NCBI GenBank assembly: GCA_949825065.1
Contig: OX463856.1
Coordinates: 16,390,095 to 16,454,094, forward strand
Direction: 5' to 3'
Source: Odontocerum albicorne
Lineage: Eukaryota; Arthropoda; Insecta; Trichoptera; Odontoceridae
Length of the DNA: 64,000 nucleotides
The stretch's first letter is position 1. Every line of letters starts with the position of its first letter. Below the pieces are notes generated by a model. That model ran no database searches. It saw only the letters and a program-made list of their open reading frames with translations, and was not told the DNA's origin. Positions 2,341-62,630 of this stretch are shown one piece after another. The translations under genes were made by a program, and so were the position numbers.

Positions 2341-2689
2341 TCTTTGTTATATACTCGTATATACATTGTTGTGTAATCTTAAAAAGTTCAATATTTATTA
2401 AATTATTTTTTAAAATGCTGTATTATCTTTGTTATTCTTTTTTGTTTCTGTTAATTCATAAAGTTATAGGTACAGAAGTATCATGTCGGTTTCCCGGCGG
2501 AAAAAAAATGAAGCAGTGTCTGTTTTGAGTTTAAGTTAAAAAATATATTAAAATATTGGAACTCATTGAACTAATTTGAAATATTCATTATTAATATTAT
2601 AGTTTATTTTTTATTGTTAGTCTAGAAAAAATATTACATTTATAGATAATTAATTACTCTTAGAATTTACTTATTGCAAAGTCAAAAGG

Positions 2690-3300
2690 TGTAAAACGGT
2701 GAAATTATAAGTATTTTGTAATTTACAAAGTTAGTTGTTAGAATTGTTATCTAGTTATAAGTTGGTATGTAACTGTTAACTATTTATAAGAAATTAAATA
2801 TGAGGATTATTAAAAATAACAATTACATGAAGGATATTAAAATTAAGTTCCTTCATAGTTATAATACCGTGTGTTTCCTCATATAGACGTATTTCAGGTA
2901 TCGCTCAGCTCCTTCAAGAATTATCTCTTAAATTTAGTATCATATAATACTTGAAATAATTTCATTTTTTATATTATTTAAGATGTTATAATTTGTCATA
3001 ATGTTTTAGTGTAACAAAAACATTTAAAGTATTTTTTTATCAAATAATCTTTGAATATTTGAACTGTTTTATAGATTTAAAAAAATTATAATTTTTTTTA
3101 GTTCTTGGTATGTTTGGTTCTTGTATGAGTTAGGGAAACCTGTAATGCGCGAAGGACCTGAATTTTTTTAAAAATTAATAAATGGACGTAATATATAAAA
3201 CTGATATATTCTTAAGATTAAAATGTGTATATATGTGTAGGTATAACCTTTGGCAAATGTTTGTAATGTAGGTTAATTTATCAAATAAAAAAAAACAAAC
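2690..3300 (+). repeat. Dispersed AT-rich repeat (family R5), split copy
   Basis: Segments 2750-2890 and 3180-3300 match, in order, 9540-9780 and 25385-25570. Shared blocks are AACTATTTATRAGAAATTAA, AAAATTAAGTT, TTCATAGTTAT, ATTCTTAAGAT, CCTTTGGCAAAT and a terminal TTTATCAAATAAAAA. The middle (2890-3180) is not shared and may be an insertion. It may be a LINE 3' UTR; no coding part was seen. Confidence 0.45.
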
Positions 3301-3584
3301 TTGTCTAAAACTATAACATTTACTTTAGATTCTTCCTTGTTTCGATTCAATGTGTTTTTAAGAAACCTGAATAAGTTTAAAAAATGTTTTCGAAAATGAT
3401 AAACTAGTGTTGCTCTGTGTTATAATTGTACCAATTTATTTATTTTGCATAATAATTATTTATAATATGTATTAATAATTTATAAAAAAAATATTTCAGA
3501 CTGAAAGCAGGAATTTTAAGAGGACACTATAACACTTTATAGGTCTGGATTTGTTGCTTGTCATTTATCGTAAACTAGGCATCG

Positions 3585-3720
3585 CCTGTATCTTATCACG
3601 TCATGTCCTTTTTGGGGTAGGTAGATATGACAAATTTCTATACCTCTCTATCCATGTACACATCTCTCGCCTTGACCACATTCATACATCTTATTAAAAA
3701 TGCTCCCCGCTTAACATGTA
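3585..3720 (-). mobile_element. LINE family A, 3' terminus
   Basis: Read on +, it carries the family 3'-end order: ATCACGTCATG, GGGTAGGTAGATATGA, then ACACATCTCTCGCCTT and ACATTCATACATC. It is about 135 bp, so strongly 5'-truncated. Confidence 0.55.
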
Positions 3721-3974
3721 CCATAATTAATATATTAAAACTAAAACTTCAAACAATGCTAGGGATTTAGAATATTTTTATAATATTGAAAATTTCAGAT
3801 GTGACCAGTATTCGAAATTTTATGTTAAAAATTCGTAATTCTTCTTTCGATTTATGAAACCATTGCAATTTACGAACCATACGTATACGAGTACCACTTT
3901 CTTTCATTCTATTTTGTGGGGTTTATTAACATTGATTAGAAATTCATCGCGTTTTAATGTGAATAGTATATATT

Positions 3975-4170
3975 GTATTTTATTACTTAAGTTGCACACA
4001 TTACAACCAGGAGGACTTATTGTCATATGATAATCTCTTCAAAGCAATCAAAAAGATGTTAAACAGAGGGAACCAGACTGAAATTGGGTTCCAACAGGAA
4101 TTTATTCCGCAACCCCATGAAAGCGTCTTACGAGTACCAACTAGAAACTAGACCAGCTCCTTGAATATTA
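3975..4170 (-). mobile_element. SINE family 1 copy carrying a TACGAGTA insertion
   Basis: Read on +, the tail-to-head order is ACAACCAGGAGGACTTATTG, ATCTCTTCAAAGCAATC, AGACTGAAATTGGGTTCC, then CGCAACCCC and AAGCGTCTTACGAGTACCAA. Sister copies have CGTCTTACCAA or CGTCTTATCAA at the last point, so this copy has six extra bases (see 4129). Confidence 0.7.
4129..4136. repeat. TA-CGAG-TA insertion in a SINE
   Basis: TACGAGTA interrupts the SINE where sister copies at 49571, 50793 and 57178 have a plain TA (CTTACCAA/CTTATCAA). The change equals TA becoming TA-CGAG-TA. Confidence 0.8.
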
Positions 4171-4314
4171 ATACAAGTTTAAAAAAATCTTTTTGCCATA
4201 ATTATATCAGTCTCCGAAATATACTGAAGATGTGTTGCCTATATTTATGGTTTTATCTAATAAGTTGAGGTGGCCATTTTTCTCTAATGAAGAATTAAAC
4301 CAAACTTATGAAAA

Positions 4315-5594
4315 TATTAGGTCCCCACATACGAAACCGGCGTTTTGCCGTACTGACAACTTTGATCTCAAATATCTTCTCTTTGGTTAAGAATTTCAAA
4401 TTCAAATTTATACAGCTATTTACTCAAGTATTTGTGTTTCGAAAATTATAATTCATTTGTTTTTTCCTCAATTGTTTTTTTTCTTTGCGTCACTCAGTTT
4501 ACAAAATGGAAAACTTGAAATATCGCGTTATTTACGAGTACGAGTTCCACCGTGGCACCAGTGCTGCAGAAAGGGCTCGAAGGATTAATGATGTGTATGG
4601 CGACGGTGCCGCAAAAGAAAACACAGTGCGTTTTTGGTTCCAACGTTTTCGTTCTGGAAATTTCGACCTGCAGAACAAGCCCCGTGGAGAAAGTTGATAA
4701 TGAAGAATTGAAGGCTATTGTGGAAGCGGATCCATCGCAAACCACGTCCGAGTTAGCTGCAGGCTGCGGTGTTAGTGATAAAACTGTTTTAATCCACTTG
4801 AAGCAAATTGGGAAGGTGAAAAAGCTTGAAAGGTGGGTACCTCACGAATTGAGTGAAGCAAATCAACGAACGCGCGTTGACTGCTGCGTTGCATTACTCA
4901 ACCGGTACAATAATGAAGGGATTTTGAATCGAATCATTACCTGTGATGAAAAGTGGATCCTGTATGATAATCGGAAGCGCTCATCGCAATGGCTGAACCC
5001 TGCCGAACCAGCCAAACCATGCCCCAAGCGAAAATTGACTCCAAAAAAGTTACTTGTGAGCGTTTGGTGGACTAGTGCTGGTGTCGTTCACTACAGCTTT
5101 CTTAAATCTGGCCAGACGATTACGGCAGATGTCTATTGTCAGCAACTGCAAACCATGATGGAAAAGCTAGCTGCTAAACAACCGAGGCTGGTTAATCGCT
5201 CTAGGCCACTGCTGCTTCATGATAACGCTAGACCACACATTGCACAACAGACGGCTACCAAATTAGAAGAGCTTCAATTGGAATGTCTAAGACATCCACC
5301 GTACTCTCCGGACCTTGCCCCAACAGATTACTATTTTTTTCGAAATTTGGATAACTTCTTGCAAGGGAAAAAATTCAACTCCGATGGGGCAGTCCAAACC
5401 GACTTCAAAGATTTTATTGATTCCCGTCCGAATGGTTTTTTTAGTAAAGGGATCGATGAACTACCTATGAGATGGCAAAAGTGCATAGATAGCAATGGTA
5501 CATACTTTGATTAAATAAATATATTATATTAAAAAAAAATCAACTTTATGTTCCTCCCAAACAAAACGCCAATTTCACATGTAAGGACCCAATA
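4315..5594 (+). mobile_element. Mariner transposon, nearly full length
   Basis: Element 4317-5592 (1276 bp) is bounded by a TA target duplication (4315-4316 and 5593-5594). The inverted repeats match over about 30 bp with a few mismatches: left starts TTAGGTCCCCACATACGAAA, right (reverse complement) starts TTGGGTCCTTACATGTGAAA, and both run on to GGCGTTTTG. Length, ends and a single D34D transposase ORF fit the mariner family, probably the mellifera-type branch. The left repeat is more diverged than the right. An AATAAA-like signal (AAATAAATATAT) follows the stop. Confidence 0.95.
4506..5514 (+). pseudogene. Mariner transposase, interrupted by one frame change
   Basis: Cut-and-paste DDE/D transposase acting on its own terminal repeats. 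It starts MENLKYRVIYEYEF with the family's N-terminal HTH region (RGTSAAERARRINDVYG). This frame stops at 4697 just after NKPRG. The rest is open in another frame from about 4680 to 5514, beginning KVDNEELKAIVEADPSQTT, so a short indel near 4675-4695 removes a few residues and changes frame. The catalytic triad is intact: Asp at 4945 (TCDEKW), 5221 (LLHDNARPH) and 5326 (YSPDLAPTDYYFF), with 34 residues between the last two (D34D). The WVPHELSEANQ linker motif is present. Apart from this break the body has no internal stop, so the copy is fairly young. As it stands it should not make active protein. Confidence 0.92.
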
Positions 5595-5711
5595 TGTTGA
5601 AAATCAAATTGTTTCGTATTGTTTGCAACAATAAATTAAAATTCACTAATCAGTAGGAAACTAAAACATATATACATATTAGAACCGGGCTGTATCAACA
5701 GTTTTTTTAGA

Positions 5712-6336: not shown

Positions 6337-6340
6337 ATTT

Positions 6341-7799: not shown

Positions 7800-8690
7800 A
7801 AAAAAATATAAAAAAAGGCATTCAGATTGTTTGAAAATTGAGATGAAAACGTTTTGTCTAAGATTTATTTTTAATCTGAGAAAGTATGATTACGTCACTT
7901 CATCCCAGAAGGAGCTGAACAAGTTGAAGTGAAAAATAGATACAAAATCCACGTACTTTCACTATTTTCTTATATTCTTAACTGCCCCCCTTAATTCTTA
8001 TTCTTAGGTTCTATTTGGAATCTAGCCCGAAACCCTTGAGTGGTCTTAACAAATAGGGTAAAGAGATCGCTAACTATTTACTAAAATTATTATATATTCG
8101 CAAGTACACACATTCATATCGTCAAATCGTTTTTCCGTCGGGTTAGGTACAGAAAAGAGAACTCCAAATTTTTATTCCATTATCTTCTTGGTGCAGTTTC
8201 CTGGAAATTCCTTTTTTATTTTGGAGCAATCATCATTTGGAGCAATAATCCAAAAAAACTTCTATTAAAATGCATTTCTTTCACTTGATACTTATAGACA
8301 GGGATGCTTACCATTATTTTTGTACCGGTTCGGATGAATTGATTGATAAAATTAGCAATCTAACGCCGAACCGGTTGATTTATTTAAAAAAAATATTGAA
8401 AAAAATGTCCTTTTTTCAGCTGTATCATTGAGAACACATATCAAATGTAAATAAAAGATAATACGAGTATTTATTGTGTTTTTTTAAAGATTTTTGTATT
8501 TACTAATGATAATGTATAATTATTAGTTTTAAAACTACTTTAACAAGAATAATTTTGTAAGATATTTAGTTCAATTTATTATTAATCAATGAGATAGGTA
8601 ATTATTTTCCCAAAAAAAGTTTATATTTTTGGATTACTCAGCACTCCTTTGTAACATTTTTTCTTGAGATATTTTTACCTAGTTTACAAG
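7800..8690. other. No recognised feature
   Basis: AT-rich, unique-looking sequence with stop-dense frames. One TACGAGTA motif lies at 8462-8469. Confidence 0.5.
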
Positions 8691-9784: not shown

Positions 9785-11030
9785 ACGTTCAAAAAAATCC
9801 CGTACGAATCAAACCAGTGACGTGTTATACTCGTATATGATTAAATTCTAAAGAGAATCTACGATTTTCGATAATTTCAAAACAGGTAAAATGTAGATTA
9901 GACTCTTTGCTTATATACATCGGTTAATTTGTTCGTCATACTAACCCTCCAGTAAGCAACAGGGGTATAAACTAGCTGTCAACAATATAAATACGAAATA
10001 AGCCCCGGGCTGTTTTGAAACACAATTATCTCAAAAGGGTGCATTGTTCAACCCTCAAACATCTACGAATGTAATTTTTTAGATAGACGGAGATTGAAAA
10101 CGCCCATGGCGATCTATTTTAATTACATCATGCCAGGGAGAAGATATTAGATAATTAGGATGCATTCCTAAAATGAAAAGATTTATTTAACGAACAAACA
10201 AACAAATTAACTGATTACCTTTTCTATTAAATGAAATAATCAATGTGAGGAATTCGTTCAAGGATAAGAAATTAGGATAAATGGATATTCTGACTTATTT
10301 AATACTTTTTCAATTCAATGTAAATAGAGATGATGCACATCTGTGCCGAGCTTCATCGTAAATTAATATGTGTAAAATAAAGTTTGGTGTGTTTTTATAA
10401 AAACGAGACATTTTATAGTCTTAATGGTAATTTTAATTGTATTTTTATTGTTCTTAAAAATACACATTTAAAAATATTTTTTCACCAAATTATTTTTCCC
10501 TGTTTCTGTTACCCTCTACTGAGGTCGAGGCAATAGACTAATCAACTGCACCGATTTTAAACAGACCTTAATATCTGTTTATGGGATTAGCATACGTATT
10601 TACATCGGTTTATTTGTCACATGGGGTGGCTTTTCAGCTTTTGCCTCGAGTAGCCCCGAGTGGAGACTGGCTGAACATTGCCAACACGCGACGTGCATGG
10701 GTTATTATTTAATGGCACAGGAGGGGAGTGCCACAAGGTCGGTTTCGAGGACCAAATGTATTTTATTGGTGCTTCGATATTTAATATTTTTGGAGTGTTA
10801 GTCTTTTTCAACAAATGTTATAATGAAGTAATGGATACACTTAATTTTAGAGAATTATTGTACTCAATTTTTAGACATATTGAATCTAATTGAAAATGGA
10901 CGTAGAATTTTTAATACGTGAATAAATTAATATGCAACTATAAATTGAACCAGTAAAGAGTTTTTAAAACATTTGTTATGAGAATACGCTAATTGACATA
11001 CAATTAACTATACCAGGATGATCATTATGG
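9785..11030. other. No recognised gene; GC-richer patch at about 10620-10770
   Basis: Mostly unique AT-rich DNA. A patch at 10620-10770 (GTAGCCCCGAGTGGAGACTG, AACACGCGACGTGCATGGG, AGGAGGGGAGTGCCACAAGG) stands out by base composition. It has short open frames on both strands but no protein motif I recognise. Confidence 0.4.
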
Positions 11031-13274: not shown

Positions 13275-14635
13275 GTTCATGTATAATCATAAATTTTGAT
13301 AAGAGTCTCCAAAAATGGTTGTTTTCAAATGCTTCCTAAAGCTATGCACGCCACTCATATTTCGAACACTTTGAGGCAGATAAAGATTCACCCAATTGAA
13401 ATATTACTAGAAAATAAACGTTAACCGAAAATAAAGATTATTAAATATTATGAAAAAAAAACCAATATGACTATAGCAATACCAAACAAACACTTTAAAT
13501 GACAAAAAATATACTGTTATCGACTACAATCAATCAAGAAATAGACTATAAATATTATATAATATAATAGAATGTTATATACAGCTTCAGGAATGCTAAA
13601 ATAATTGTAGTCAAACAAATCAAAATTTATTTTGAAAAATTTAATGGAGAAGAACAAATCACGTTTGATAGCTAGAGTATCGCCCAAGTCTTATTTGTTT
13701 TATATACTCGTACGTACATGTATCACGATAGAGAGATTTGTAATTTGGCCTAACGTGACAGTACGGGGAGAGCCGGGCTTCGGACTGATCTGGACAAAAG
13801 TATTTTGAGGAAAATTAAGGATGCTGTTGGATGAATTTATCCGTCTTAAACATTCTCCATGATATCATTGATTGCTTATCTTACTTTAGCCCCGTCGTGA
13901 TTACCCGTTCTTCCTACTGTCCTGCCAACTCCTCGCTCTCTCGCCATTAGTCCAACACTTAACTGTTGTCCAGAGTGATTAAGAAAGAATTAACGTATTA
14001 ATTGGGTGGCATTGTAATAAAATTCAGTTTTAATTGCGACCCACGTTGACTACGGGATGGCTATTCAAATAATTCTCTTTGGATATTTGTACATGCTGTT
14101 GCGATTATGACAACCATAAATACCTGGCGAATGGTTATAGATGGTCTGCTTTTTTAAAGAATATTTTATTATAAACCGGGTGATATGAGTCAAAAGGAAA
14201 ATTTAATTAACGTATTAATTTCAGATATGTTGATTCCATGTTAATTGATTTTTGATACCTACGCAATTTACGAATAATTATTATCGAAGTGCATCAAGTA
14301 TTCATATAAAGACGTACGCATCACACACATATCATAAGGTCGTGTCCCTTGCAGGGTATGCAGAGAGATATATCTCCAAACTTTTCTATCCAAACACACA
14401 ACTTTCATGTTCTCGACGTTCAGTCATGCATAATTATCTATACTTCTCACTTTACATATATACATACCAACACACTATTTACCTGTCGGGTTACACATAC
14501 TATCTCTACTGTTCAATATCCTTAACTGTTCAGCTACCCCCTCCAATCTAGCCGAAAATCTTTAGCAACTTTCCGATCGTGGACTTGCACTACGCTCAAA
14601 CAAACATTGTTTATTGACCTTCCGAGTTCCGCTCT
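13275..14635. other. No recognised gene; GC-richer block at about 13740-13950
   Basis: Includes TACTCGTA at 13705-13712. The block CAGTACGGGGAGAGCCGGGC and neighbours up to about 13950 is less AT-rich than its surroundings but shows no recognised domain. The 99-codon + frame at 14252-14551 is low-complexity and looks like chance. Confidence 0.4.
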
Positions 14636-15570: not shown

Positions 15571-15789
15571 TCATTAATAGATTAATTAACTCATGTCAGG
15601 AATTTTGATGGCTCAATTGAGGTCATAACTTGTAGTAGGAAGTCAACAGGCAATTTGCTATTTCGCAGTTTACCACTCTATTGTAAATTGCGCATTGGAA
15701 TGCAAAATTAAAAACATTGGGCGCATCCCAACCTGAAGAATTTCGATATTTTAACATAATAAATTTATTTTAAATTACATTTTGTAAGT

Positions 15790-16185
15790 CTTGTTTTGTT
15801 GATATATTTTATGGTATTGTTGGATTAGTATGTATCCTGCATGCAGCTTTGGGAAACACTTAAGGACATCCGTTTTTGGGAGGTTTTATCAAAATGTATA
15901 ATTGTATATGAACACTACACACTTATACTAAACTACACCTTAAACCGAATGTCGGAAGATCTGCAAAGGTTTATTTTTCTCAACATATGGAGATGCGGGG
16001 AAGTAGCTTATATTATGATAGCCACTAGTACATTCCTACCCTTGCATTCAACTTATATATATTTATATTGTATTATTTTTAATCTGTCAATAATAGTGAG
16101 TTCTAGTCCCGAGTTGGTGTACCATGAGGAGAGTCTCCTCTATTAATGGCGCTATATAAATTATCTTATTATTATTATTAACCCC
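15790..16185 (+). repeat. Repeat family H with (TTA)n tail
   Basis: Shares with 31960-32300: TCGGAAGATCTGCAAAGG, GAGATGCGGGGAAGTAGC, TACATTCCTACCCTTGCATT, CAATAATAGTGAGTTCTAGT and AGGAGAGTCTCCTC. It ends GGCGCTATATAAATT plus TTATTATTATTATTA. The ending resembles those of L2/CR1-group LINEs and the SINEs they mobilise. The coding part was not identified. Confidence 0.65.
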
Positions 16186-17144: not shown

Positions 17145-18650
17145 AATGCGTTGTAGCATATAAGATATAAAATTAAATAAATAAAGCTATAGCTAGACTA
17201 TAAAACTAACGTGTGAATATCGGCAGATCTCGACCAGACGTGTGAATGCACCTTAAATCTGCATCCTTTTCCTTCAAACGGTTCTTAACAATACGCCGCT
17301 GCAGTCGCAAAACATTAAATAAAACTGTAAAAACGCTTTATTCTTTAAACTTTTCTTTACGCGGTTCTATAAAAATGCAGTCACACTATTCACAGAGGGG
17401 ACGCAAGAATTTTACCGCCCAATTTACGCTTTTTTTGTAACTAATAAATCCGCCAGGTTTTACACTATACAACAAAAGCGCTATACATAAGAGTACAAAT
17501 ATATTAGTTGATTATTGCGCTGACTTGCAAAATTTTGAACGAAAGGTGATGATGATAAAAGGTGATGTAATTTATATTAGCTGATAAATAAAATTCAATT
17601 TGTAATGAAATAATTTATTTCAATGGCTAAGAAATACAACAGTCATTGGACAATAAAATCAAATTAACTGTGTAGTTATAATTTTTTGATCATATTGAAT
17701 TTCTCTTTTCGTTGATAGAACTGATGACAGCGTGAGATTGATACGATTAATATCTATATCATTATTTTTTTTAAATACAAAATTGTAATGTTTCATACAC
17801 AAAGGTTTAAAAATATTTCAATTAGATTTATTTTTGTTATGTTTTGTATTTTTGTTAAGGTTTCATCCCTACTTTAAAAGGGTTTTTCGGATTTGTTGCC
17901 TTGTTGAATTTCGGAGTTGTTTCCGTAGCTATAATAATGGTTAACGTTTCAAGGCGTTGCGGACTTAATCCTATGGGCAATCTCAAATAATATAGTATAT
18001 TAGGTATTTTTTTAGACAAATGGTGCACCCAGTTCTTGTCATATCAGAGCACCATTACGTTCAGCATTAAACACGAAATGAAAAATAGGGATTGAGATAG
18101 CAAGGAACTGCATAAAAAGTTAATACTCGTACTGAATCGAATCACGCCCAAAAACTAATTTGCGATCGGGATTTTCGATCGATTACATGTTCACAATTTT
18201 GCCAGTTTTATTTACTGTAACAAATATGTTTAGCCAATTTAATTATCTGGTATATATTATGTAGACAAACTTTTTTCACATTTTGAACAATGTTTTGCAA
18301 TGTTATTGAACAAATTATTTACTGCCCTTATTGGTCTTACTAAGTACTATTTACCCTGTATAGATGTAGATTGTTTATTGGTAGATGTTTTGTGACTTTA
18401 TTTGATGGATGTAACATATTGTGACTTATGTCACTTTAAATTTGTATTAATTTTTTATTTCTTTTTCCTAAAAATATTTTTTTAAATACTTTAAACCTTT
18501 TTTATTGTTTTGGTATTTATATTGTAGAACCCCTTTTATAAACACTATGATTTAAACCAATGGGAAAAAAATCTACACAATAAATTTCAATTAAATGGGC
18601 GAACTATTTTCAATTAGCAAAAGCATTGTCGCACTGTTTGAAAAAAAGAG
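17145..18650. other. No recognised gene or repeat
   Basis: AT-rich, stop-dense. TACTCGTA lies at 18124-18131. Nothing else stands out. Confidence 0.45.
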
Positions 18651-18654: not shown

Positions 18655-19125
18655 AGATGGCGTTAATCTTACTTGTATCTTTCTTCTACCAAATCTAACT
18701 TTCACCTTGGTGTGTTAAGCTGGACACCAGCACACTATAATGCACTGTCATTTATCCTACTTTAGATATAGCGTGGTTGTATATTTCGTAAGTGATCAGT
18801 TTACCTTCTTCCCTGTCGCTACACCTCTTAATTTATTTTCTTTTAATTAGCCCATCATATGTTAGCATACTGCTAAGATAACAGTACTCATCAATCTGCT
18901 CCAGTTTCTTTGAATCAACCCATACATCGCATACACTTTTTACACCTTTTTCTTAAACCAGAACTTTTGATTTCGCTACATTCATTTTCAACCATTTTAC
19001 TAGGCTATCTCCCATACAGCTCATTTATCCATATGAGCTACTTAACCATATTATTCTCTCAATCTCTATTTCTAAGCGTTAAAAGACAACTCAATTAAAC
19101 TGTATGTCATTAATACTCGTAGATT
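18655..19125 (-). mobile_element. LINE family A, part upstream of the 3' end
   Basis: Read on +: TGTATCTTTCTTCTACCAAA, GGTGTGTTAAGCTGGACACC, TCCCTGTCGCTACACCTCTT, CAGTACTCATCAATCTGCTCC, TTTCTTTGAATCAACCCATA, CTTTTTACACCTTTTTC, CCCATACAGCTCATTTATCC. On - this is the RT segment before the GSETWTW motif. It is degenerate and truncated at both ends. Confidence 0.65.
19114..19121. repeat. TA-CTCG-TA insertion in a LINE A copy
   Basis: This copy reads CATTAATACTCGTAGATTAA; the sister copy near 15571 reads CATTAATAGATTAA. The difference is exactly CTCG plus a second TA. Confidence 0.85.
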
Positions 19126-20839: not shown

Positions 20840-21720
20840 CAATCAGAATGCTGTAGAATTAATAAAGTTGTGATGCGGTAACTCCGGTAAAATTTAAAAC
20901 ATTAACAGACATCTTTTAAAACATTGTTGCATCTCCTGACAGTTATAGGAAAAGTTTAAGGAGTAGGGCCGGAATCGTTGAGCTGCATCTTAATTAAATA
21001 GCTGAATGTCTTATTCTTATTTGTTGGTGTTGCCATCCTATGGGTTTCACAAAAAAAGGAATTGAAAGTTCTTTGGATTAAACGCAGAGATTAGCATTTC
21101 ATTAAGACTCAACAATTAGAAATAATTAACCTTCAATTTTATTGGTAGACACGAAACAACATTTTTCGCTGTATGTTCTCGTGTAAATTAAACGTTTTAT
21201 TTTTCAATTTTATTCGCCATGCCGATGGGAAAACATACAGTTAATGTAAATTTACTGCTTGGAATTTGCTGATTTACGTTTTTCTGCAAGCGTCATTGGA
21301 AAATGTTGGCGGTAGGTAAAAGGCCCATCGAATTGAGATATCAAAAGCTACAGGCGATTTCATTAAGGGAATTAAATATATTTTTAATTGAGACTTAATA
21401 AAGTTGTTGTCTTATGAAAGTATTTTCTTGTTACTTATCAACTTGTACACGGTTGGATCGGTCGTTTGAACACTGCATAGTTAATATCAGTCTCTTACCA
21501 GCTTTCTATTGAACATGTATATTACAACTTTGTGTAATATACTCGTACATTAAAATATAATTAAATATACATGGATAAAATTTTTAGGTATTCGTCTTAT
21601 TGCAAAATATAAAAAGTTTTTTTTATTTTTTGATGGAGGAAAATAATAATTGTTTAAATAACTCTAGCGTCACTTTGTGGAACTCTATAATTAATATATA
21701 ATTAAAATACGGTTACGTGG
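20840..21720. other. No recognised feature
   Basis: AT-rich unique sequence. TACTCGTA at 21540-21547. Confidence 0.45.
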
Positions 21721-24559: not shown

Positions 24560-24880
24560 ACCGAATAAATGCTGTGAAAATGCACGCACAGGAAATAATA
24601 CGTGAGTTGAATCTCTGAGATGTATATACATGCATAACAAATGAATGAAGAAACATAAACAAAACAAATATATAGTGCAACTATGACTGTAATGCGTGGT
24701 ATAGGAAGATTAAGGAAAGTATAGTTGAATCAAGTGAATTATATTTTGAAACGTCGAATTCTGAAAAATCGTAGGAGTTGAATGAGGAGGTGTATGGATG
24801 TAGAACAGGCGAAAGATGTGTATTGAGATGGGAAAATCTGGTGCTCTGTCCACTCTGCCTATGTATGTGTATATTCTTTT
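24560..24880 (+). mobile_element. LINE family A, 3' end
   Basis: AACAAATGAATGAAGAAACA, AAACAAATATATAGTGCAAC, ATGCGTGGTATAGGAAGATT, AGTTGAATCAAGTGAATTAT, AGGAGGTGTATGGATGTAGA, ATCTGGTGCTCTGTCCACTC and TGCCTATG follow the family order (R-TKQIY-AN, GRGRPRK, LDQVNDIL, RCMDV-EA, WRSVLSAY in translation), with frames broken. Confidence 0.7.
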
Positions 24881-31959: not shown

Positions 31960-32300
31960 TGACCATGCCTGCGTTACACTACATCTAAAGCCGAACGTGC
32001 CGTTTATCATATATCGGAAAATTCTACAAAGGTTTCTTTTCAGTTCGTCTTCCCTTAATAAGTTCTCTGCGGTTTTTTTACCAAATATGTTTTTCTGAAT
32101 ATACGCAGATGCGCGAAGTATCTAATCTACTGGTCGCAGCCGCTACATTCCTATCCTTACACTTAAGTTTTATACTCGTACATTTATTTTGTTATTTTTT
32201 TAATAAGTCAATAATATTAGGTTAGACTCCAGAGCTGAAGTGCTCCAGGAGAGAGTTTGCTCTCTAAAGAGCGCTATATAAATTGTATTTTTATTACTAT
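31960..32300 (+). repeat. Repeat family H
   Basis: ACATCTAAAGCCGAACGTGC, TATCGGAAAATTCTACAAAG, GCAGATGCGCGAAGTATC, GCTACATTCCTATCCTTACA, AAGTCAATAATATTAGG, GGAGAGAGTTTGCTCTCTAA and AGAGCGCTATATAAATTG parallel 15790-16185. TACTCGTA at 32173-32180 lies in a stretch where the sister copy has a run of TA. Confidence 0.65.
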
Positions 32301-33992: not shown

Positions 33993-34000
33993 TACGAGTA
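33993..34000. repeat. TA-CGAG-TA insertion in a tandem unit
   Basis: TGTGTACGAGTATATCAC here against GTGTGTATATCAC in the neighbouring unit (about 34069); the difference is CGAG plus TA. Confidence 0.75.
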
Positions 34001-36480: not shown

Positions 36481-36970
36481 ATAATGAAATATTTTCAATA
36501 AGACAACAATTTGTACGTGAGAAATGGTCAAGTATCTAGAGGGTACCATAAAATGGGAATTAACCTTCCATTTTACACGTAAATTAATCTACTTGATTTT
36601 GCGTCCAGCGCCGAAAGATCTTTTTGTACCAATCGATTCGTGTTCCATGCCTTCCATCTACTTTATAAACACGTCTAGAAACTAGTATATCTCAAGTCTT
36701 TCCAACTGTCACTTAGAAAGCGTTGTCAAATAAATTTGTATTAAGAGATAAGTAAATTAAAATGGTGAAATGACCCAGTGCCCATTTCTTAACCCATGAA
36801 CCGTGCAGTGTGTGAATGGTATCATTAGGTCTGGTGTACCCAGTACCCGATGTTCAGACCACTCATTCCGCTTATTTGTGGACACTCACTACCACTTTAC
36901 GTTATTTATTAACACCAAGTTTCTATAGACTGTTTCACATTTATTTATTATTGTATTGTTTATTATTTTT
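36480..36970. other. No recognised feature
   Basis: AT-rich, contains no recognised motif; leads directly into the 74-bp array. Confidence 0.4.
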
Positions 36971-36972
36971 TA

Positions 36973-37428
36973 TTTTTACAATGAAATATATAAAGCACTC
37001 CTCTGTCTAACTAGGCGTATGTTTATTCTAAGGCAGGTAGGTTTAATTTTTACAATGAAATATACTCGTATAAAGCACTCCTCTGTCTAACTAGGTGTAT
37101 GTTTATTCTAAGGCAGGTAGGTTTAATTTTTACAATGAAATATATAAAGCACTCCTCTGTCTAGCTAGGCGTAAGTTTATTCTAAGGCAGGTAGGTTTAA
37201 TTTTTACAATGAAATATATAAAGCACTCCTCTGTCTAACTAGGCGTATGTTTATTCTAAGGCAGGTAGGTTTAATTTTTACAATGAAATATACTCGTATA
37301 AAGCACTCCTCTGTCTAACTAGGTGTATGTTTATTCTAAGGCAGGTAGGTTTAATTTTTACAATGAAATATATAAAGCACTCCTCTGTCTAACTAGGCGT
37401 ATGTTTATTCTAAGGCAGGTAGGTTTTA
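36973..37428. repeat. Tandem array of six 74/80-bp units with higher-order pattern
   Basis: Units start TTTTTACAATGAAATATA at 36973, 37047, 37127, 37201, 37275 and 37355. Units 1, 3, 4 and 6 are 74 bp; units 2 and 5 are 80 bp because they hold TACTCGTA and also share the variant AGGTGTATG. The array is therefore two copies of a 228-bp three-unit block. A diverged single unit lies at 38007-38085. Confidence 0.97.
37063..37070. repeat. TA-CTCG-TA insertion in tandem unit 2
   Basis: GAAATATACTCGTATAAAG here (and at 37291-37298 in unit 5) against GAAATATATAAAG in four sister units. Confidence 0.95.
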
Positions 37429-38159: not shown

Positions 38160-38730
38160 TAAGCAGATGACATACTATATTATATCAGCATCACATTACT
38201 CGAAGGAAATTGATTGAAATCAAAAACATTAAATTTACAAAAGATCTTCGCAGATTTGTACACACAAAATCATTCATAAATCCTTAGAAATCAAGGAATA
38301 GGGATGTACTTTTTTATTTACCCATGAAACACTTTTTGTTCCAATTATTGTCATTAGATACGATACTACAGTGTATCGTTCGTGATCGTTCGTTTCGCCT
38401 TTCATTTTGTGGAACTCCATATTAGAATATTATAACAATAAATTTTATTTGTTATTCCACTAGTTATGTTGATCCCCGCTACACGTGTGTCTACCTCCAA
38501 TCCCGAGGCTCTTTCCGAGTGGAATGGCGGCTTAGGATACGATGCAGAATCAGGAAGTTATGTTATTTGTGGAATAACAATGCAATTAATTGTAAAATGT
38601 TCAGAAATGTTTAATTCCAACCTATCATTAACTAATTTATAGACGACAATAATCACTCCACTTGAAATAAACGGGAAATGAACTGTACTCGAAATACGTG
38701 TGAAATACTATATAATATGAGTGCCAAGAT
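38160..38730. other. No recognised gene
   Basis: Contains two TAT/GTTATTTGTGGAATAAC-type short repeats (38450 and 38560: TTATTTGTTATTCCACTAG, GTTATTTGTGGAATAAC) that form a weak inverted pair, otherwise unassigned. Confidence 0.4.
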
Positions 38731-38737
38731 AGAATGA

Positions 38738-39190
38738 AGTGGAGATCTTTCATATCTACAAGTGGATATCTGTCATATCTACAAGTGGAGATCTGTCATA
38801 TCTACAAGTGGGATCTGCCATATCTACAAGTGGAGATCTGTCATATCTACAAGTGGAGATCTGTCATATCTACAAGTGGGATCTGTCATATCTACAAGTG
38901 GAGATCTGTCATATCTACAAGTGGAAAACTGTCATATTTACAAGTGGAGATCTGTCATACCTACAAGTGGAGATCTGTCATATCTATAAGTGGAGATCTG
39001 TCATATCTAATAGTGGAGATCTGTCATATCTACAAGTGGAGATATGTCATATCCACAAATGGGATCTGTCATATCTACAAGTGGAGATCTGTCATATCTA
39101 CAAGATGATCTGTCAGATCTACAAGTGGAGATCTGTCATATCTACAAGTGGGATCTGTCATGTCTACAACTGGAGATCTGTCAGATACAA
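38738..39190. repeat. 23-bp minisatellite, about 20 units, open in all three + frames
   Basis: The unit is CTGTCATATCTACAAGTGGAGAT with 22-bp variants lacking one base of the GGAGA part. Because 23 is not a multiple of three and no unit holds a stop in any + frame, three overlapping frames are open (up to 154 codons), each reading YLQVEICHIYKWRSVIST in rotation. These are not genes. Confidence 0.95.
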
Positions 39191-39194
39191 ATTG

Positions 39195-43329: not shown

Positions 43330-43900
43330 ACGAAATTAAACTTTAAGTACTAATTTCTTCAGTAAAAAAATAGTTCAGATTTGGTGTTAATAAAGTCGGA
43401 CCATGAATTCAGATCTATATCACATTCAGTGAACAACCATTGTTCAACAAGTGAAGTGCTTTTACAAATGAGTTCGCTCTTTTCTGAAGAACGAAATGTC
43501 TACAAAACTTATATTTTACTATCACAGAAATAAACAACTTGTAGAACTATGTACGAGTAGACAAGTAATGATCAAAAAAACTTTCAGTATGACAAGTGAC
43601 AGTACGAAATTAATTCATAGGGACAATATTTTGTTTTCTGACTTGAATTGCTGAATTTTTAAATTAACATCCTTCATTTAATGATTTTCAAACGGGAAAT
43701 TATTATTAGTGTTTTGTGCCAATTTTGGTTTTTAACTTTTTTCCATGAAATTCGTCATGTTGAATTTAAAATTCTGTCATGTCTGATGGCCTTTAGTTAA
43801 AACTGAGAAAGTTCAGACACATTTCAATGAATTTTTAACTCAAACGGTATGTTCGATTTGTGAATAAATCAATTATTTAATTGAGAGAGGATGTGACGGT
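43330..43900. other. No recognised gene
   Basis: AT-rich. The first 120 bp may be diverged upstream LINE G sequence (read on -), but no motif was certain. TACGAGTA at 43552-43559. Confidence 0.4.
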
Positions 43901-43904: not shown

Positions 43905-44800
43905 GGAACATTCTTAACCCACAATTCTTCGCGGTCATAAATCTTCACTGTAACAAACCTTCTCAGTCACAAATCGTCCCGGTCACAAATCTTTCCGGTC
44001 ACAAATCTTCCCGGTCATAATTCTTCTCGGCCACTATTCTTCCCGGTCATAATTCTTCTCGGCCACTATTCTTCCCGGTCACAATTCTTCTCGGCCACAA
44101 TTCTTCTTGATTATAATTCTTCTCATGGAAAAGTTTTCGCCGCATACATTGAACATTTGTTTTTTGATAAATGTAATTTTTTGATAAAGTGATTACTTCT
44201 ATATTTACTTATCAATTTATTAAAAAAAGTGGCTCAGAAGTATGGCCTTTGAAATAAAACAACTATTAATTAAACAATGTTTACAAAAAAAGAAGTTTTT
44301 TGTGTATGCAATATATTAATCTAGTTTGGAAAACTATTACGATCAAACTAACATTTGTTGAATAATTCACCACCCCAAGGGCTAACATGTATACAAGAGG
44401 TTTTATTTCCACTTTCTGTCAACTTCCCTTAACTTTCACAAAACATTTTTGACATAACAATCGCAATTTCTTTCAATAAAGACAATCAATTTAATTTTTA
44501 TTTTTTATTAGATAAGAACGAGGATAAACCATATCAAAATGCAGTTTATGTAACAATTTTTGTAAATCATAGAAAAATAAAAAAAATAAATGTACACGAA
44601 ACGGCTTTGGACAAATGTAAAACAATCCGTTAAAATGTCATTATAAATTAGAACAATCATATGTATCAAATATATTTTTTTTCATGAAATAGAAATTTCG
44701 TGACGAAGAGTTATGGTCAGGAAGATTTGTACCCGGGAAGAATTGTGGCCGGGAACAATTGTGACTGGGAAGAATTGTGATCTAGACCCGAATATGATAT
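43905..44800. mobile_element. Foldback-like element with inverted 16-bp tandem repeats
   Basis: Left arm (about 43915-44135): about 13 copies of a 16-bp unit (GGTCACAAATCTTCCC, with GGCCACTATTCTTCCC variants). Right arm (about 44700-44785): about five copies in inverse orientation (GGGAAGAATTGTGGCC). The middle (44135-44695) is AT-rich with no long frame. Inverted subterminal satellite arms are the hallmark of foldback transposons. No target duplication was identified. Confidence 0.65.
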
Positions 44801-45479: not shown

Positions 45480-45722
45480 TGTCACTGAAAAATATATTTG
45501 GTTTGAATGGTTTGCAATATGCAGACGGAATGGTGACAAAGGCAGAAAATAGTGGAGTGGATGGCAAACTTAATAAACCTACGAGTATCACGTTTATGTA
45601 TGAGGAAAGCACGTCAGATGAAAAGTGAGTAAATTGATAGCTGAATGATTTTAGATAAAGAAAGGTGTCAAACAAGGATGCGTATTGTCTCAATGGCTCT
45701 ACAATATTTATATTGAGGTATG
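45480..45722 (+). pseudogene. LINE reverse-transcriptase core fragment
   Basis: The + strand ends with KKGVKQGCVLSQWLYNIYIE (45660-45719), the conserved RT block before the YADD motif (G--QGC-LSP-LFN-Y). Upstream ATGGTGACAAAGGCAGAAAA and TTTATGTATGAGGAAAGCAC are in a disrupted frame. It is the only piece of RT core seen in the window; all other LINE copies start downstream of it. Confidence 0.7.
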
Positions 45723-47164: not shown

Positions 47165-47894
47165 TTTTAGGTTGTTGCTTAATTAACGATCATTTTACCG
47201 GTGCTCTTTGAATCTGTCAAATTTGTCGTTTTGTATATTTTTTACTTATACATTTCTTACTATTTAGGTGGTAAAAATACATGTCGATAACCATATTCAT
47301 ATTCGGCGTATTAGACTTAATCGTTCCACTATCATCAGGCACCTCTAAAAGCTAGGTAAGGTATGGCAATGGCTGAATGGGCTCCTCATGAGCTCTCCGA
47401 CAACAATCAGGCCAACCGAGTCCGCACGTTTATCCAATTGTTTCAGCAAAATCCTTTTCTTCAACATCTGGTGACCAATGAGTCATGGTTACTCTTTAAA
47501 AATGTCAAAGGAAATAAGGTGTGCGTTGATCTAGGCCTGACTTCGAAAATAATTCCAAAGGTCGTCCATTGCAAAAAGGCTATGAAGTGTGTTTGAAAGG
47601 ACCGCTTTGGTATAATTCACTGGTAAACGGCCTCTGCTGTTGGTGGAATGACAAATATGTGAAACGTGAATTCGTTGAGATCGCGAAATTACTGTGCTGC
47701 CGGCCGCCAGTTTTCGAAGTGATAAAGCATGATATGACGAATACACGGGTAGTTGTTATAAGTATGTATTCCTTACTACTCGTATATGTGAAATAGTAAG
47801 GAAAATATTTGTTAATTTTTTTAAACAAAATGACAAATTTGACAGATTCGAAGGGCACCGGTAAAACGATCGTTGATTATGCACCAACCTAAAA
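47165..47894 (+). mobile_element. Mariner-like element, internally deleted, with ~65-bp inverted repeats
   Basis: Left end TTTTAGGTTGTTGCTTAATT and right end (reverse complement) TTTTAGGTTGGTGCATAATC. Both continue AACGATC-TTTTACCGGTGC, TCTGTCAAATTTGTC and TTTTGT with few mismatches. The core AGGTTGGTGCATAA is typical of cecropia-like mariners, though these repeats are longer than usual. Total about 730 bp, so more than a third of an autonomous element is missing. Confidence 0.85.
47363..47740 (+). pseudogene. Mariner-like transposase fragment
   Basis: The frame from 47363 reads EWAPHELSDNNQANRVRT, FLQHLVTNESWLLFKNVKG, the WVPHEL linker and the TGDESW block. The catalytic Asp of the latter is lost (TNES). 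After a frame change near 47560 it reads KGYEVCLKGPLWYNSLVNG, the degenerate segment after that block. The N-terminus and the second and third catalytic residues are absent. Confidence 0.8.
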
Positions 47895-49605: not shown

Positions 49606-50034
49606 TACGAGTATATATAGTATGTTGAACTAAAATATGATTCGTACAAAATACATTGGAGTAATATTATCGTAATGATAACGAGATCCATGTAGCGAGC
49701 TATTAGGATTTTCTAAAATACCAAAACAATACCTGGAATTATTTATTTTTATGAAATAATCACTACGGAGAAACAACGCCACTGGTATAATCCCTAGAAT
49801 TTTGAATAAAATACCTTCTGATTTATTTGGGAAATAGGAAATACTTTGTTTTTTTTTCACTTATTTGTTTTATAATACTACCATATTGAAAAATTGTTAG
49901 TTAAATTTCTAAATTGTTAAAAATATATTATATACTCGTATATTAGAAGTCATTCGCACTGGTAACGGAATCTCACTATTAAATATTATTTAATAATATG
50001 TAAAAAATAAAATTAATTTAACAAAATTAATATT

Positions 50035-51889: not shown

Positions 51890-53635
51890 ATTAAACTTTT
51901 TGACGCTTAGCAAAAAAATACTTTGTTGAGCATTTTTACATCAAATTATATACAAAGTATTGAAAACGATCGCTCGAGTTTTCCAAAAATTTTAAACGTT
52001 TTTAAAAATATGTTTAACCTTATTGTCAAAGTTTTCATTGAAAAGTATCTTAAACCTTATTGTCAAAGTTTTCATCAAAATTCAATTTTAACTTTTAATT
52101 TAAAATTTTGTAGTTTTTTAAATGTTTCAGACCTTAATTTATAATCCAGCACGAGTTTTGTATGAAAGCTTTCCTATAATGTTAATATTCAATACAGAGA
52201 TTTAGTAAAAATATCCCCTCAGACATCTCCAAATTAATACCAAAGGTTAATACATCCACGTGTTTATGAAATATAACTTTTATGTGCTAGTGCCAAGAAA
52301 TACACAATAGCTATCGGGAATTAGGATAAGAGTTTGAACGGGCGGGGATATTCTATCCTAAGAATTTTATGGATTCTAACAAAAGAATATGCAAAGAATA
52401 CATATCTAAATATACTCGTATCTTAGTATGAATCTTAAATTATCAAGTAAACAAAAACTTTATCAGAAATGGTACATTTTGGAGACACTCAAAGGGCATT
52501 TTACACCAGAACTACCCAAAGACAAAGTGTATTCTATTAAGAAATCAAGATATAAGCAGGATTTTTAATAGCGATCTTCAATTACTAGTATTTTTTATTG
52601 CCTGATTATTAATTTTAATTTTATTAATTGGTTTATGCAATTCCACTTTTTGATCATTCCTTCAATTCTGTTCACTTTGGTCAAAACCAACCAGCATTTT
52701 GGTCATAAACCAAGTATCTCGAGCACAAGCGATATCTTCTCTTATGTAACGCCTCCTAAAATAAGCACCCCACAGGTTTTTCTACTTGGTCATTCGATCG
52801 AATAGGTGTATAGTCTCTGGTCCCTTTGCCATTGACACTTCCCACTAGAATTGACCATTCAAGGGTTTCGATCTCTCTTTGTGCTATGTGTTCCAAATAT
52901 CGTGAGATATTGTCGCACATAGAATGTGAGATGCACACATCACAGCATAAAAATGTGTCTCAGCTCAGAGTTCTTTAATAATTGTGGCAGTCTCGGGCAT
53001 AGAATACGCAAGAAGCACCTCCAAAGTTTAACTTTTTAGTTATGAATATGTTCTTTTTATTACTATTGTTCAATATGATAATTGCTGGACCGGCGCCACT
53101 GGGCGCACGTGTGCAAATAGTACGAGGGAGCAGCACTGACTGGTAGACACCTATTTTATTAATAATATGCACCCGAACCCTTAATACACCTACCTTTCTT
53201 GGTAGATATATTAAAAACTCTTGCCTGAGGAGTTCGTGTTATTGTATTCCGCTTTAGCATAACCATGAAGACGAGTTTATAAGAAGATTTCGCCAAAATA
53301 CGCGGACAATGCAGACACTGTTTTCTGTCTCTTCATTTCTCCTCCTCTTGATGTGACGATACAGTCCAAGTCAGACTCTGACCTCCTTAAGTAACTCCAG
53401 TCTAGATATAGTGCCTTCATCAGCCCAGTCTGCAGTGCATTCGGTGTTATTTCATACTTCTTTAACCTGCATTCTTTTAGAAATATTCTGCCCATGAAAT
53501 ACTCTTCAGCCTCATGTGTGTGGAGGGTTTGGATTCTTCGTGGAGATTATTTTTCATTTTCTAGGTCATGTTAAATTTTTACTAGCCACAACACATCATT
53601 CAAAATTTTCTTCGTTTTAATGGAAAGTCGAATCT
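51890..53635. other. No recognised gene
   Basis: AT-rich to 52700. Then two blocks with mixed composition (52740-52940 and 53060-53130, plus 53290-53520) hold short frames on - without recognised motif. TACTCGTA at 52413-52420. Confidence 0.35.
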
Positions 53636-57215: not shown

Positions 57216-57219
57216 TTTA

Positions 57220-58100
57220 TTGAATTTGGTGGTCAGCATGATAATTCTGGACGGAAGTGGTATAGTGCCTTTGAAAATAAAATAAAAAGATTCGTTAATT
57301 CCAATTAGAGTAGAATTAGCCAAATTCTACGACTGTGTTTGACGAGAAGTTTGTTACCCTTTGTCCAGCAAACATCACATTACTATGTTTGAAAGTTGAT
57401 AAAAAGGAACCCTGTTACCAATGTATTTGACAGAATTGGCTCCTGGGCCCAATCTTTACAATAATTTTCCATCATAGTCAATCAGCTACAGTATTAGTAC
57501 TAGTTTTTAAAAAATTCTTAGTAATCTTTAGTTGTTATTTTTACAAGACAGAAACTCGTGAGAGGAAATGAGGCACATACTTGTACTCGTACATAGCACG
57601 GGCGCACCCATCTCGAAGATTGAGTTTGATTGACTCATTACACGAGATCAGATTTGGTGTCAGGTATGGGATAATTATATGGCGATAGGATCACCTATTA
57701 AACCAGCGCACAGTGTGTGGAATAGCCATAAGCAAAGGGGAAAAAACTTTACTGATGAATATATTAAGTTTATGGAAAATAAAGCATCTATTCTATCTTC
57801 AGATTAACTGTTACTTCCAACTATGTAGCAATATCTAAGTTATTTTATTTCTAATTGTTTTATAGTGTTGTCAAAGTTACTTTGAATAAGTAACACGGTG
57901 ACAAGTATTTTTCAATCTTAAGTAGCATACACACATACATACCGTCTGCCGTGTCTTATTTCTAGTTGTAACATTTGTCTCTAAGAAACAGTTATTCTTT
58001 CTTTATCTCATCATTTCTCATCATATCTCATCATTAGACAACACAGTAATTATTAAAAAAAACTGATTTAAAGTTCTATATATCTATTTCCTGCAACTTA
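57220..58100. other. No recognised gene
   Basis: AT-rich; TACTCGTA at 57584-57591. No other motif. Confidence 0.4.
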
Positions 58101-58104
58101 TGTT

Positions 58105-58235: not shown

Positions 58236-58587
58236 CACTATTTGGAAGTACATTTAGGCTTAATAAGCGTTAATCAACATTGTTTTAAGTTTTTTAATTT
58301 ATGTTATATACGAGTATTTCACAGTTATCTTTCATCCAATTATTTCTAGCTCTATCAAACATTGTAATGCCGGATATTCTTCAATTTTTATGCTTTTATC
58401 ATACCTTTTCAAAACCAAGGCTTCGTTTGCATATATCAAGGCTAGCACTAACACTATTGTGCACTGTAATTTTGGAAGATTTAAAAATAATTAGTGTACC
58501 GTTGTCCTTGTTACCTGCAGCAAGAAACCTTTCATCACGCCATGTGTTTTATAGTGTAGACAAAAAAACATATATTTTAACAGAATG

Positions 58588-58760
58588 ACTTCCGTGGCCT
58601 TAGAGTAGTGCCCTTGTCTTCGCCCAGAAGTTAAGGGCTCGATTTCCAAAGGGTTAAAAAAATCCAGTCTGTTTTTGATATTCATGAGATAAAAAATTCA
58701 ACCGATTGGATTAAATTGTCATATGGCATTAACCCCATTAAGTTGTTTCATATGTACAAT
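58588..58760 (+). mobile_element. SINE family 1
   Basis: TGACTTCCGTGGCCTTAGAG (box A), TTAAGGGCTCGATTTCC (box B), AAAATCCAGTCTG, CCGATTGGATTAAATTGTCA, TATGGCATTAACCCCATTAA. Confidence 0.75.
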
Positions 58761-58764
58761 CAAA

Positions 58765-59345: not shown

Positions 59346-59349
59346 AAAA

Positions 59350-59945: not shown

Positions 59946-59954
59946 TAAACATAC

Positions 59955-60690: not shown

Positions 60691-60694
60691 TTGT

Positions 60695-61140
60695 CAACGA
60701 GCGCGTAATGCAGTAATAAAACTTTGTACCATTATAACATTTCAAGAATTCGTTCATTTTTAGATCATTCCTTGAATTTTGATTTACGTCATATGGCCCA
60801 ATGGTGAAATCATCGATTGAGAAAATAAATATTCAGAAGAAATTGGGTGGAGCATCTCCCACCAACTGAAAACTGCAATATTTGTCTAAATGCTATCAAA
60901 CGTCGATTCAAGGTCCGAACAATTTGTTGCATTGGCCTGCAGAAGCGATCGATTAAAGTTTTTTTAACGATTCACCGACCAATGTTTATCGGAGAATCAG
61001 TGTTTAGAATATTGGGCAGGTGTTACCAACTAATGGGCCGAATGTTTTTTTAAATCCATGCAAATAAGAAATTTTGGCATAAATTTGTTGTATTGAATTG
61101 TAAAACTCTACGGTTCACGCATTAATATAATACAAGTATT
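60695..61140. other. No recognised gene
   Basis: A 68-codon + frame (60847-61053) starting MEHLPPTENCNICLNAIKRR contains a C--C pair but no recognised domain. Confidence 0.35.
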
Positions 61141-61144
61141 AAAC

Positions 61145-61345
61145 GCTTTCTTTCCAGTACATGTCCGGCTTATTGCTATGTTGAAATATTTTATAGCCAA
61201 CCAGAAAGATTTTAAGCATGCCTTAAGTAAAAAAAAACAGACGAAATGACCTTAAAAAATTTGATACCAGTGGGAATCAAATTCGCAACCTCCAGGTTGG
61301 AAGACAGATGTCACACTAGGTCAAGGAGGTCATTTAGTTCAAATT
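61145..61345 (-). mobile_element. SINE family 1
   Basis: Read on +: GTACATGTCCGGCTTATTGC, ATAGCCAACCAGAAAGATTT, CCAGTGGGAATCAAATTCGC, AACCTCCAGGTTGG, AGGTCAAGGAGGTCAT. Confidence 0.8.
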
Positions 61346-61364
61346 ATTAATAAATTAATTATAC

Positions 61365-61570
61365 GTAACATCATACTCTTTTCTCGTCAGTATAGGCAGA
61401 GAGGACAATGCGCCAGATTTTCCTGTCATAACACACCTTTTGCTTTCTCTTCATCTGTATACTTTCTCATAGAAATCTTTCGATTTATCCGACTTTTTAC
61501 GATTCCTTTTTTTCAAAATATCATTCGCTTGATACAATCATACTTGGTTTTCTTTTAACATAATTAATCA
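61365..61570 (-). mobile_element. LINE family A, 3' end
   Basis: Read on +: GGCAGAGAGGACAATGCGCC, AGATTTTCCTGTCATAACAC, ATCATTCGCTTGATACAATC, ATACTTGGTTTTC. Confidence 0.7.
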
Positions 61571-61794
61571 AGTTTATATTTTCTTAAAATTTCTTTGCGT
61601 ATAAATGTTACCAAACAAGATTAAGTACGATAAAAACTGAGATGTTATCAATTAACACATTTTTTTCTATTTACCCTTGATGCTCGCAAATTGAATCGAT
61701 ATATTGAGGGTTAATTATGATAAGTTCGATGTGGCTTATTTAGAAACTCCTAGGTATCTTCGTGAGAGAAATATAAAGCTAGTTAAATAAATAT

Positions 61795-62630
61795 TAAATG
61801 GTTAAATTCCATCGTAGCAATATTATTTTATATAAGTTTATTAAAAGTGACGACATGCTTAATAAAATATCTCAATGCAGACAAAGTGAGGGCAATTATA
61901 AGAAAAATATCAAAGGAATAAAATGTGAATTTATTGATTAAATTCTACCTTGAAATAATTTTATTGCAAGCTTGTTAAAGAAGATGACATGCTTGTTAAA
62001 ATATCTGAACACAGTTAAAATGTGAGCAATTATGCCAAAAATATCGAGTCAGTAAAACGTATATTACGTGGTTAAATTCTGTCTCAACAAAATGATTCCA
62101 TAAAAAAAAAATTTCAAAACTATCTCAATGAAGAATAAAATATGGGCAATCATGAGAAAATATCATGTCAGTAAAATCTCTATTTAATGGTTAAGTTCTG
62201 TCTCAGAAAAATAATTTCGATGAAATAAGGAAATAAGAAGCGTACCGTCGTTGCAAATAATACAAGATTGTTCAAAACGATGATATATGTGTATATAGTA
62301 TATTTAAATAACCTAACGCAGGTAAAATTAAGAAAATTATGAGAAAAATACGAGTATCTAGCCAGTAAAATCTGTATTAAATTATTCAATTCTGTCTCAC
62401 CAAAATAATTTCAACGTAATAAGGATATAGGAAGCATATTATCCTTTCGAATGATACAAGACTATTCAAAACGATGATAATATATGTTTCCTAAAATAAC
62501 ATAATGCAGGTAAAATGACGAAAATTAGGTTTAAAATATCAACCCAGTAAAAACATGTGTATGTCTTATAGTTAAATTATGCCTTAACAATATCAATCCA
62601 CACAAGCTTATTACAAAACCATGATATGCT
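61795..62630. repeat. Degenerate tandem array, six units of about 118-192 bp
   Basis: The anchor GGTTAAATTCYGTCTC recurs near 61801, 61936, 62071, 62189, 62381 and 62571. A second anchor (ATGAGAAAAATATC ... CAGTAAAATCT) precedes each. Units 4 and 5 hold an extra block (AAATAAGAAGCGTACCGTCG / GATATAGGAAGCATATTATC, then AATAATACAAGATTGTTCAA). Confidence 0.7.
62349..62356. repeat. TA-CGAG-TA insertion in a tandem unit
   Basis: GAGAAAAATACGAGTATC here against GAGAAAATATC and AAAAATATC at the same point of sister units. Confidence 0.8.

Follow-up and report, generated by a model that had tools for sequence, protein, structure and literature searches.

Why does a single word of eight letters, TACTCGTA on one strand and TACGAGTA on the other, recur throughout a 64-kb stretch of the genome of the caddisfly Odontocerum albicorne? 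The window, by which we mean the whole stretch of 64,000 nucleotides analyzed here (contig OX463856.1, C24:16390095-16454094, in an assembly of 1,287,057,991 bases, or 1.287 Gb, and 1241 contigs), had been described in a first-pass annotation as carrying this word at 22 places, read as footprints of a TA-targeting transposon. All 22 starts are exact copies of the motif and, together with the one at 4533, they make 23 in the window, against 1.41 on average in 100 dinucleotide-preserving shuffles, of which the richest contains 5 and none gets to 23; among words of the form TA-NNNN-TA, only those made of A and T alone (AAAA, AAAT, TAAA, AATA and their complements) are more frequent. In a 204-kb sample, composed of the window and of 14 stretches of 10 kb taken at round coordinates, 82 copies were found, for 5.05 and 3.86 predicted by second- and third-order Markov models with the motif masked. 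A genome-wide comparison with a control word, as the first-pass annotation had proposed, gave a clear enrichment by direct count: 381,502 copies of the motif vs 30,151 of the motif read backwards, that is, more than 12-fold. The counts per strand (190,749 forward and 190,753 reverse for the motif, 15,070 and 15,081 for the reversed word) are no evidence for footprints, since strand symmetry makes them equal for any word, the control likewise, and they say nothing on the balance of CGAG and CTCG at oriented targets. With a scaled background of about 24,000-32,000 copies, the excess amounts to about 350,000 marks in the genome, roughly one per 3.7 kb.

That the marks are insertions can be seen directly where a repeat has sister copies that align cleanly: a duplicated TA and a short insertion face a single TA in the sister, as expected of an excision footprint of the Tc1/mariner type. 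Of the five comparisons on which the first-pass annotation had relied, three hold with six-base gaps, namely those at 19114, 37063 and 62349; at 4129, its 'SINE' case, no sister spanning the site was found and at 33993 the sister units of a 43-bp tandem array differ beyond a clean 6-bp gap, making this case ambiguous. At 19114, pairwise alignment with the sister near 15571, in a repeat about 92% alike, sets TTAA[TACTCG]TAGATTAA against TTAATAGATTAA; as similarity stops 8 bases past the gap, this site is not counted in the sample survey given below. At 37063, a 6-bp gap separates the site from four sister stretches and the neighbouring units read plain TATA, units with and without the six bases being interspersed in the array (36962-37428), while the mark at 37291 is a tandem duplicate of this one (231-bp copy, 98.7% identical) and both stand for one event. 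At 62349, the gaps at the TA are of 6, 6 and 7 bp in three sister units, to which the excised form aligns gap-free. To these cases is added 32173, where the BLASTN alignment to 15974-16181, at 71% identity, has a gap of 6 bp. Over the whole sample, 21 of the 82 sites have an alignable copy across the site (61 have none), and 10 of them, one of which (L014_4410) is weak, fit the reconstructed empty site gap-free, corresponding to nine events as 37063 and 37291 are one; four more are units of an array in L015 with filled sisters only and seven gave no resolved alignment. An all-against-all comparison of the sample yielded 75 rows with a filled 6-bp gap, 10 of which are the motif (nine sites, one being listed twice); among the other 65, 33 originate from a single satellite array in L015. 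This array extends over L015:6997-9714 with units of about 69 bp, judging from the spacing of its copies.

The sites themselves and the inserted bases carry further information. When the 82 sample sites, array copies and 4533 included, are compared with 38,226 TA positions on both strands, the reconstructed empty site is found to favour ATA-TA-TAT, with A-T-A at positions -3 to -1 in proportions of 0.55, 0.65 and 0.67 and T-A-T at +1 to +3 in proportions of 0.46, 0.55 and 0.52, for a baseline around all TA of 0.36 at each flank position. Such a palindromic and TA-rich target, the kind of site used by Tc1 and Sleeping Beauty, agrees with a Tc1/mariner-type footprint. Regarding the mixed tetramers CGCG and CTAG, the degenerate word TACKMGTA occurs 406,280 times in the genome, which leaves 24,778 once the 381,502 copies of the motif are subtracted; this is without excess, a second-order Markov model predicting 3.9 sites per 204 kb or about 24,500 when scaled, and the sample contains one CGCG and one CTAG form. 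On the footprint reading, this background level means that the middle two bases were settled as one block. The source would be an element with ends CGAG...CTCG (or CTCG...CGAG) that inserts into TA and duplicates it. For excision, its transposase would make a flush cut at the 3' ends and cut the 5' ends four bases into the element, creating a four-base stagger and leaving on each flank the TA with a four-base 3' tail. Coming from two inverted-repeat ends, these tails would pair at their outer bases only (C:G and G:C); the middle pairs, both mismatched, would be repaired as a block on the template of either strand, giving CGAG or CTCG but not CGCG or CTAG. We infer this stagger and these repair steps, and the two footprints of Sleeping Beauty follow the same logic. 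In one instance (L003:1065-1072, on C1), the mark lies in frame within F-A-D-D-[T-R]-I-V-I-F and adds Thr-Arg to FADD-IVIF, which we take to be a reverse-transcriptase-like catalytic motif.

With good confidence, we thus regard the marks that have a clean sister as six-base insertions at TA and, most likely, as excision scars of a Minos-type Tc1/mariner transposon, their putative source. Most of the approximately 380,000 marks in the genome are likely to be scars left when such a Minos-like element landed at TA and was then excised, any single mark being a candidate scar. Tc1/mariner elements are described, in passages of PMC3878927 and PMC2874221, as inserting at TA and leaving a few terminal bases between two TAs upon excision. 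For Minos of Drosophila hydei, an end primer given in a section of PMC3680223 (TACGAGCCCCAACC...) starts with TACGAG, a passage of PMC3386967 citing Arca et al. 1997 states that excision leaves either a deletion or a 'characteristic six bp footprint' and, according to a passage of PMC6980720, the fly gene osy has a 6-bp allele from Minos excision in which Thr-Arg is added. The letters of this allele would be ACTCGT, which encodes Thr-Arg. The six inserted bases consist of TA and the four terminal bases of the Minos primer end (CGAG), and match the 6-bp Minos footprint in length. Minos is hence similar to the inferred source by its Tc1/mariner nature, its TA target, its TACGAG end, its 6-bp footprint and a Thr-Arg allele such as TACTCGTA would give; it differs in that here the scars number hundreds of thousands, that the variant scars tested are without clear excess and that no element with Minos inverted repeats was established, the scored transposases reaching at most 34% identity (245 residues) or 43% (144 residues). 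Sleeping Beauty, for which a passage of PMC4378557 gives two consensus footprints, TACAGTA and TACTGTA, is alike in having two scar forms derived from a mismatched overhang with TA on both sides, yet it has a three-base stagger and one mismatched pair where four bases and two mismatched pairs would be involved here. The first-pass annotation knew of no named element leaving this mark, a view superseded by Minos with its TACGAG end, its 6-bp footprint and its Thr-Arg allele, and the 4-bp unit spreading by an unknown route that it had also considered is not needed. Its proposal of a TA-targeting footprint of the Tc1/mariner type with CTCG/CGAG ends fits the clean 6-bp insertions, the target preference, the lack of mixed-tetramer excess and the genome-wide enrichment; as to the element itself, no source was found.

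Several results speak against a Minos-type source. According to passages of PMC3386967 and PMC6980720, Minos in Drosophila also yields 4- and 8-bp insertions and deletions; in the sample, neither deletion nor one-base-insertion variants of the scar are in clear excess, the largest deletion variants being TACTTA (209 for 159-169 expected) and TACTGTA (44 for 33-34) and the one-base-insertion variants numbering 11 for 20 expected. Insertion events must moreover be fewer than marks, as some marks were duplicated in tandem arrays: near the start of C1, 12 are found at multiples of 45 bp, six at 66-bp steps and, in another array listed for one motif form only, six at multiples of 99 bp. The 88 half-sites TACGAG/TACTCG in the 204 kb have no common continuation resembling an inverted repeat, which excludes only a very abundant element, since thousands of copies could escape a sample of this size. 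A search of the genome with the Minos transposase, in which 113 of 30,650 candidates were scored, reached no more than 34% identity over 245 residues or 43% over 144, and in the ten loci fetched from the 119 matches listed there are three families of Tc1-like elements and a nested element flanked by TA, whose ends all differ from those sought. Finally, the start of the Minos inverted repeat, TACGAGCCCCAACC, has 78 matches vs 25 for the control, none exact and all with one mismatch; when the commonest variant (21 of the 78) was followed up at ten loci, loci L023-L030 with other variants being set aside, nine aligned both left and right of the motif, which is therefore internal to them and not the end of a resident element.

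Within these fetched stretches, no exact inverted partner of the repeat-start variant was found, and none of the fetched loci contains paired half-sites (TACTCG..CGAGTA or TACGAG..CTCGTA, 20-3000 bp apart) in which 6 or more of 8 further bases are inverted as well. Loci L031, L032 and L034-L040 belong to a dispersed repeat conserved on both sides of TACGAGCCCAAACC, which lies in its interior. At L021:2309-2337, a short palindrome, TACTCGCAC...GTGCGAGTA, begins and ends like the mark; it may be a relic retaining both ends or a chance occurrence. As for the resident Tc1-like families and the nested element, they have TA-flanked inverted repeats, with similarity to Tc1-type transposases in the three families, and by the same footprint logic they would not leave CTCG/CGAG because their ends differ: TACACTAGCGG / CACTAGCGG in L041-L044, a family that looks intact, TACAGTACTG or TACAGTATTG (CAGTACTG or CAGTATTG) in L046 and L049, CAGTCTGTTTGA in L047, L048, L050 and the outer element of L045 (TACAGTCTG in L047 and L048), and TTGGGAGTACAAATTAG in the element nested in L045. 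The L041-L044 family is about 1.6 kb long, with 34-bp ends (CACTAGCGGTCATTGAAATG), copies 94-96% alike and some long open frames, and has possibly been active recently. The nested element (L045:56-1350), 1.3 kb long and flanked by TA, has the inverted ends TTGGGAGTACAAATTAG / TTGGATGTACAAATTAG and sits in a Tc1-like element that aligns uninterrupted in L047, L048 and L050. For one of the resident transposases, the only insect named among the best 120 of 574 relatives is the caddisfly Arctopsyche grandis, at 58%.

The scars also look young, since the 24 one-base neighbours of the motif, with 127 occurrences in the sample for 123-137 expected, are not enriched overall. As a rough estimate, allowing two standard deviations, at most about a quarter of the scars would be mutated and their mean age would lie below 3-4% divergence. 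Three single neighbours look raised, TACTTGTA (20 vs 10.4), TACACGTA (15 vs 7.0) and CACTCGTA (9 vs 4.1), and the surplus of the first could reflect CpG decay. Regarding the number of elements involved, a handful of highly active copies could have been enough given a long time, as neutral marks would become fixed as fast as the germline produces them.

Could the same marks have arisen otherwise? An element outside Tc1/mariner that targets TA, or a domesticated transposase, in either case with a four-base stagger and CTCG/CGAG ends, is in our view unlikely. It would be in keeping with the lack of any Minos-like transposase above 43% identity among the 113 scored candidates, and a scar alone reveals how the cut was placed and which four bases end the element, without naming its family; however, a short scar with a TA on either side is what Tc1/mariner elements leave and, among the documented footprints found, that of Minos has the right length, terminal bases and effect on coding. 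Programmed or massive somatic excision, in which the germline would keep the elements and an assembly from body tissue would display scars only, has an analogue in the TA-bounded internal eliminated sequences of ciliates and would account for many scars with hardly any resident element. We nevertheless judge it very unlikely: of the two arrays listed for both motif forms, the one at C1:24114-24699 contains 12 TACGAGTA in one orientation, followed by TACTAGTA at 24744, and the one at C1:51271-51601 contains six TACTCGTA at 66-bp steps in one orientation, and the L015 array is likewise uniform (four of four), so that the scar most likely predates the duplication of the units and was inherited, as independent repair would have mixed CTCG and CGAG. 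The TACTAGTA of C1:24744 occupies the place of TACGAGTA in the last listed 45-bp unit and represents either a copy that has mutated or the outcome of mixed repair.

It is extremely improbable that no insertion occurred at all and that the word is an old motif which point mutation, selection or a repeat family has preserved or multiplied. One dispersed repeat could in principle supply 23 copies in 64 kb, but array copies aside the flanks are alike for about three bases only, the six bases are absent from sister copies, and point mutation would have left a halo of near matches that the neighbour counts (127 vs 123-137) do not show. We give virtually no weight to an artefact of assembly or basecalling, given that only some units of an array contain the six bases, that these are copied along with the units and that they follow the target preference; moreover, no sequencing error known to us would add the same six bases at TA.

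Applied to the window, the proposed excision from TA by a Minos-type transposon leads to the assignments of Table 1, in which one copy of the motif stands apart. The copy at 4533 belongs to the frame ATG GAA AAC TTG AAA TAT CGC GTT ATT TAC GAG TAC GAG TTC and is not a footprint, as TAC GAG TAC GAG encodes Tyr-Glu-Tyr-Glu inside the mariner N-terminus MENLKYRVIYEYEFHRG; it was hence rightly left out of the first-pass annotation as native coding sequence. The corresponding gene copy (4506-5514) starts with MENLKYRVIYEYEFHRG and has a Transposase_1 domain in frame with a start that reads differently, so its frame is broken. Tandem arrays of the window lie at 38714-39193 (units of about 23 bp), 43920-44143 (about 16 bp) and 36962-37428 (74-80 bp, with the duplicated scar).

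Table 1. Exact copies of the motif in the window, with their assignment
Feature	Position	Strand	Remark
Candidate footprint, TACTCGTA	2352..2359	+	Exact motif; no spanning sister
Candidate footprint	3886..3893	-	Exact motif; no spanning sister
Candidate footprint ('SINE' case)	4129..4136	-	Exact motif; no spanning sister
Native mariner codons, not a footprint	4533..4540	-	Same 8-mer; transposase reading frame
Candidate footprint	8462..8469	-	Exact motif; no spanning sister
Candidate footprint	9828..9835	+	Exact motif; no spanning sister
Candidate footprint	13705..13712	+	Exact motif; no spanning sister
Candidate footprint	18124..18131	+	Exact motif; no spanning sister
Probable footprint in repeat	19114..19121	+	Sister near 15571 has plain TA
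Candidate footprint	21540..21547	+	Exact motif; no spanning sister
Probable footprint	32173..32180	+	Sister repeat 15974-16181 without the six bases
Candidate footprint, edge of 43-bp tandem array	33993..34000	-	Exact motif; ambiguous sisters
Probable footprint in tandem-array unit	37063..37070	+	Neighbour units plain TATA
Probable footprint copied with tandem unit, not independent	37291..37298	+	231-bp copy of the 37063 stretch
Candidate footprint	43552..43559	-	Exact motif; no spanning sister
Candidate footprint	45580..45587	-	Exact motif; no spanning sister
Candidate footprint	47777..47784	+	Exact motif; no spanning sister
Candidate footprint	49606..49613	-	Exact motif; no spanning sister
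Candidate footprint	49933..49940	+	Exact motif; no spanning sister
Candidate footprint	52413..52420	+	Exact motif; no spanning sister
Candidate footprint	57584..57591	+	Exact motif; no spanning sister
Candidate footprint	58309..58316	-	Exact motif; no spanning sister
Probable footprint in tandem unit	62349..62356	-	Sister units without the six bases

Excision scars have been known mainly from laboratory mobilisation and from single loci. The kind of footprint described here is already known and what is new is its scale, with about 350,000 excess marks; if our reading is right, the phenomenon is ordinary in kind and extraordinary in number, and in the open-licence papers searched we came across no account of such scars across a whole genome. 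We are evenly divided on whether a single 'hit-and-run' transposon of the Minos type has been the main small-insertion mutator in this lineage, leaving about 350,000 young, hardly mutated and inherited scars while being so readily excised that next to no copies remain. Were this the case, the genome would be a fossil record of the insertion sites of a transposon that is gone or nearly so, and would offer a natural and countable record of excision and repair, from which insertion preference, repair outcome (readable in the block copying of a two-base mismatch, with mixed products showing no excess) and timing through relatives could be obtained. It would also mean that the number of resident copies can badly underestimate the past activity of DNA transposons, and that genes of this lineage may frequently carry in-frame insertions of two residues (Thr-Arg or Thr-Ser in one frame).

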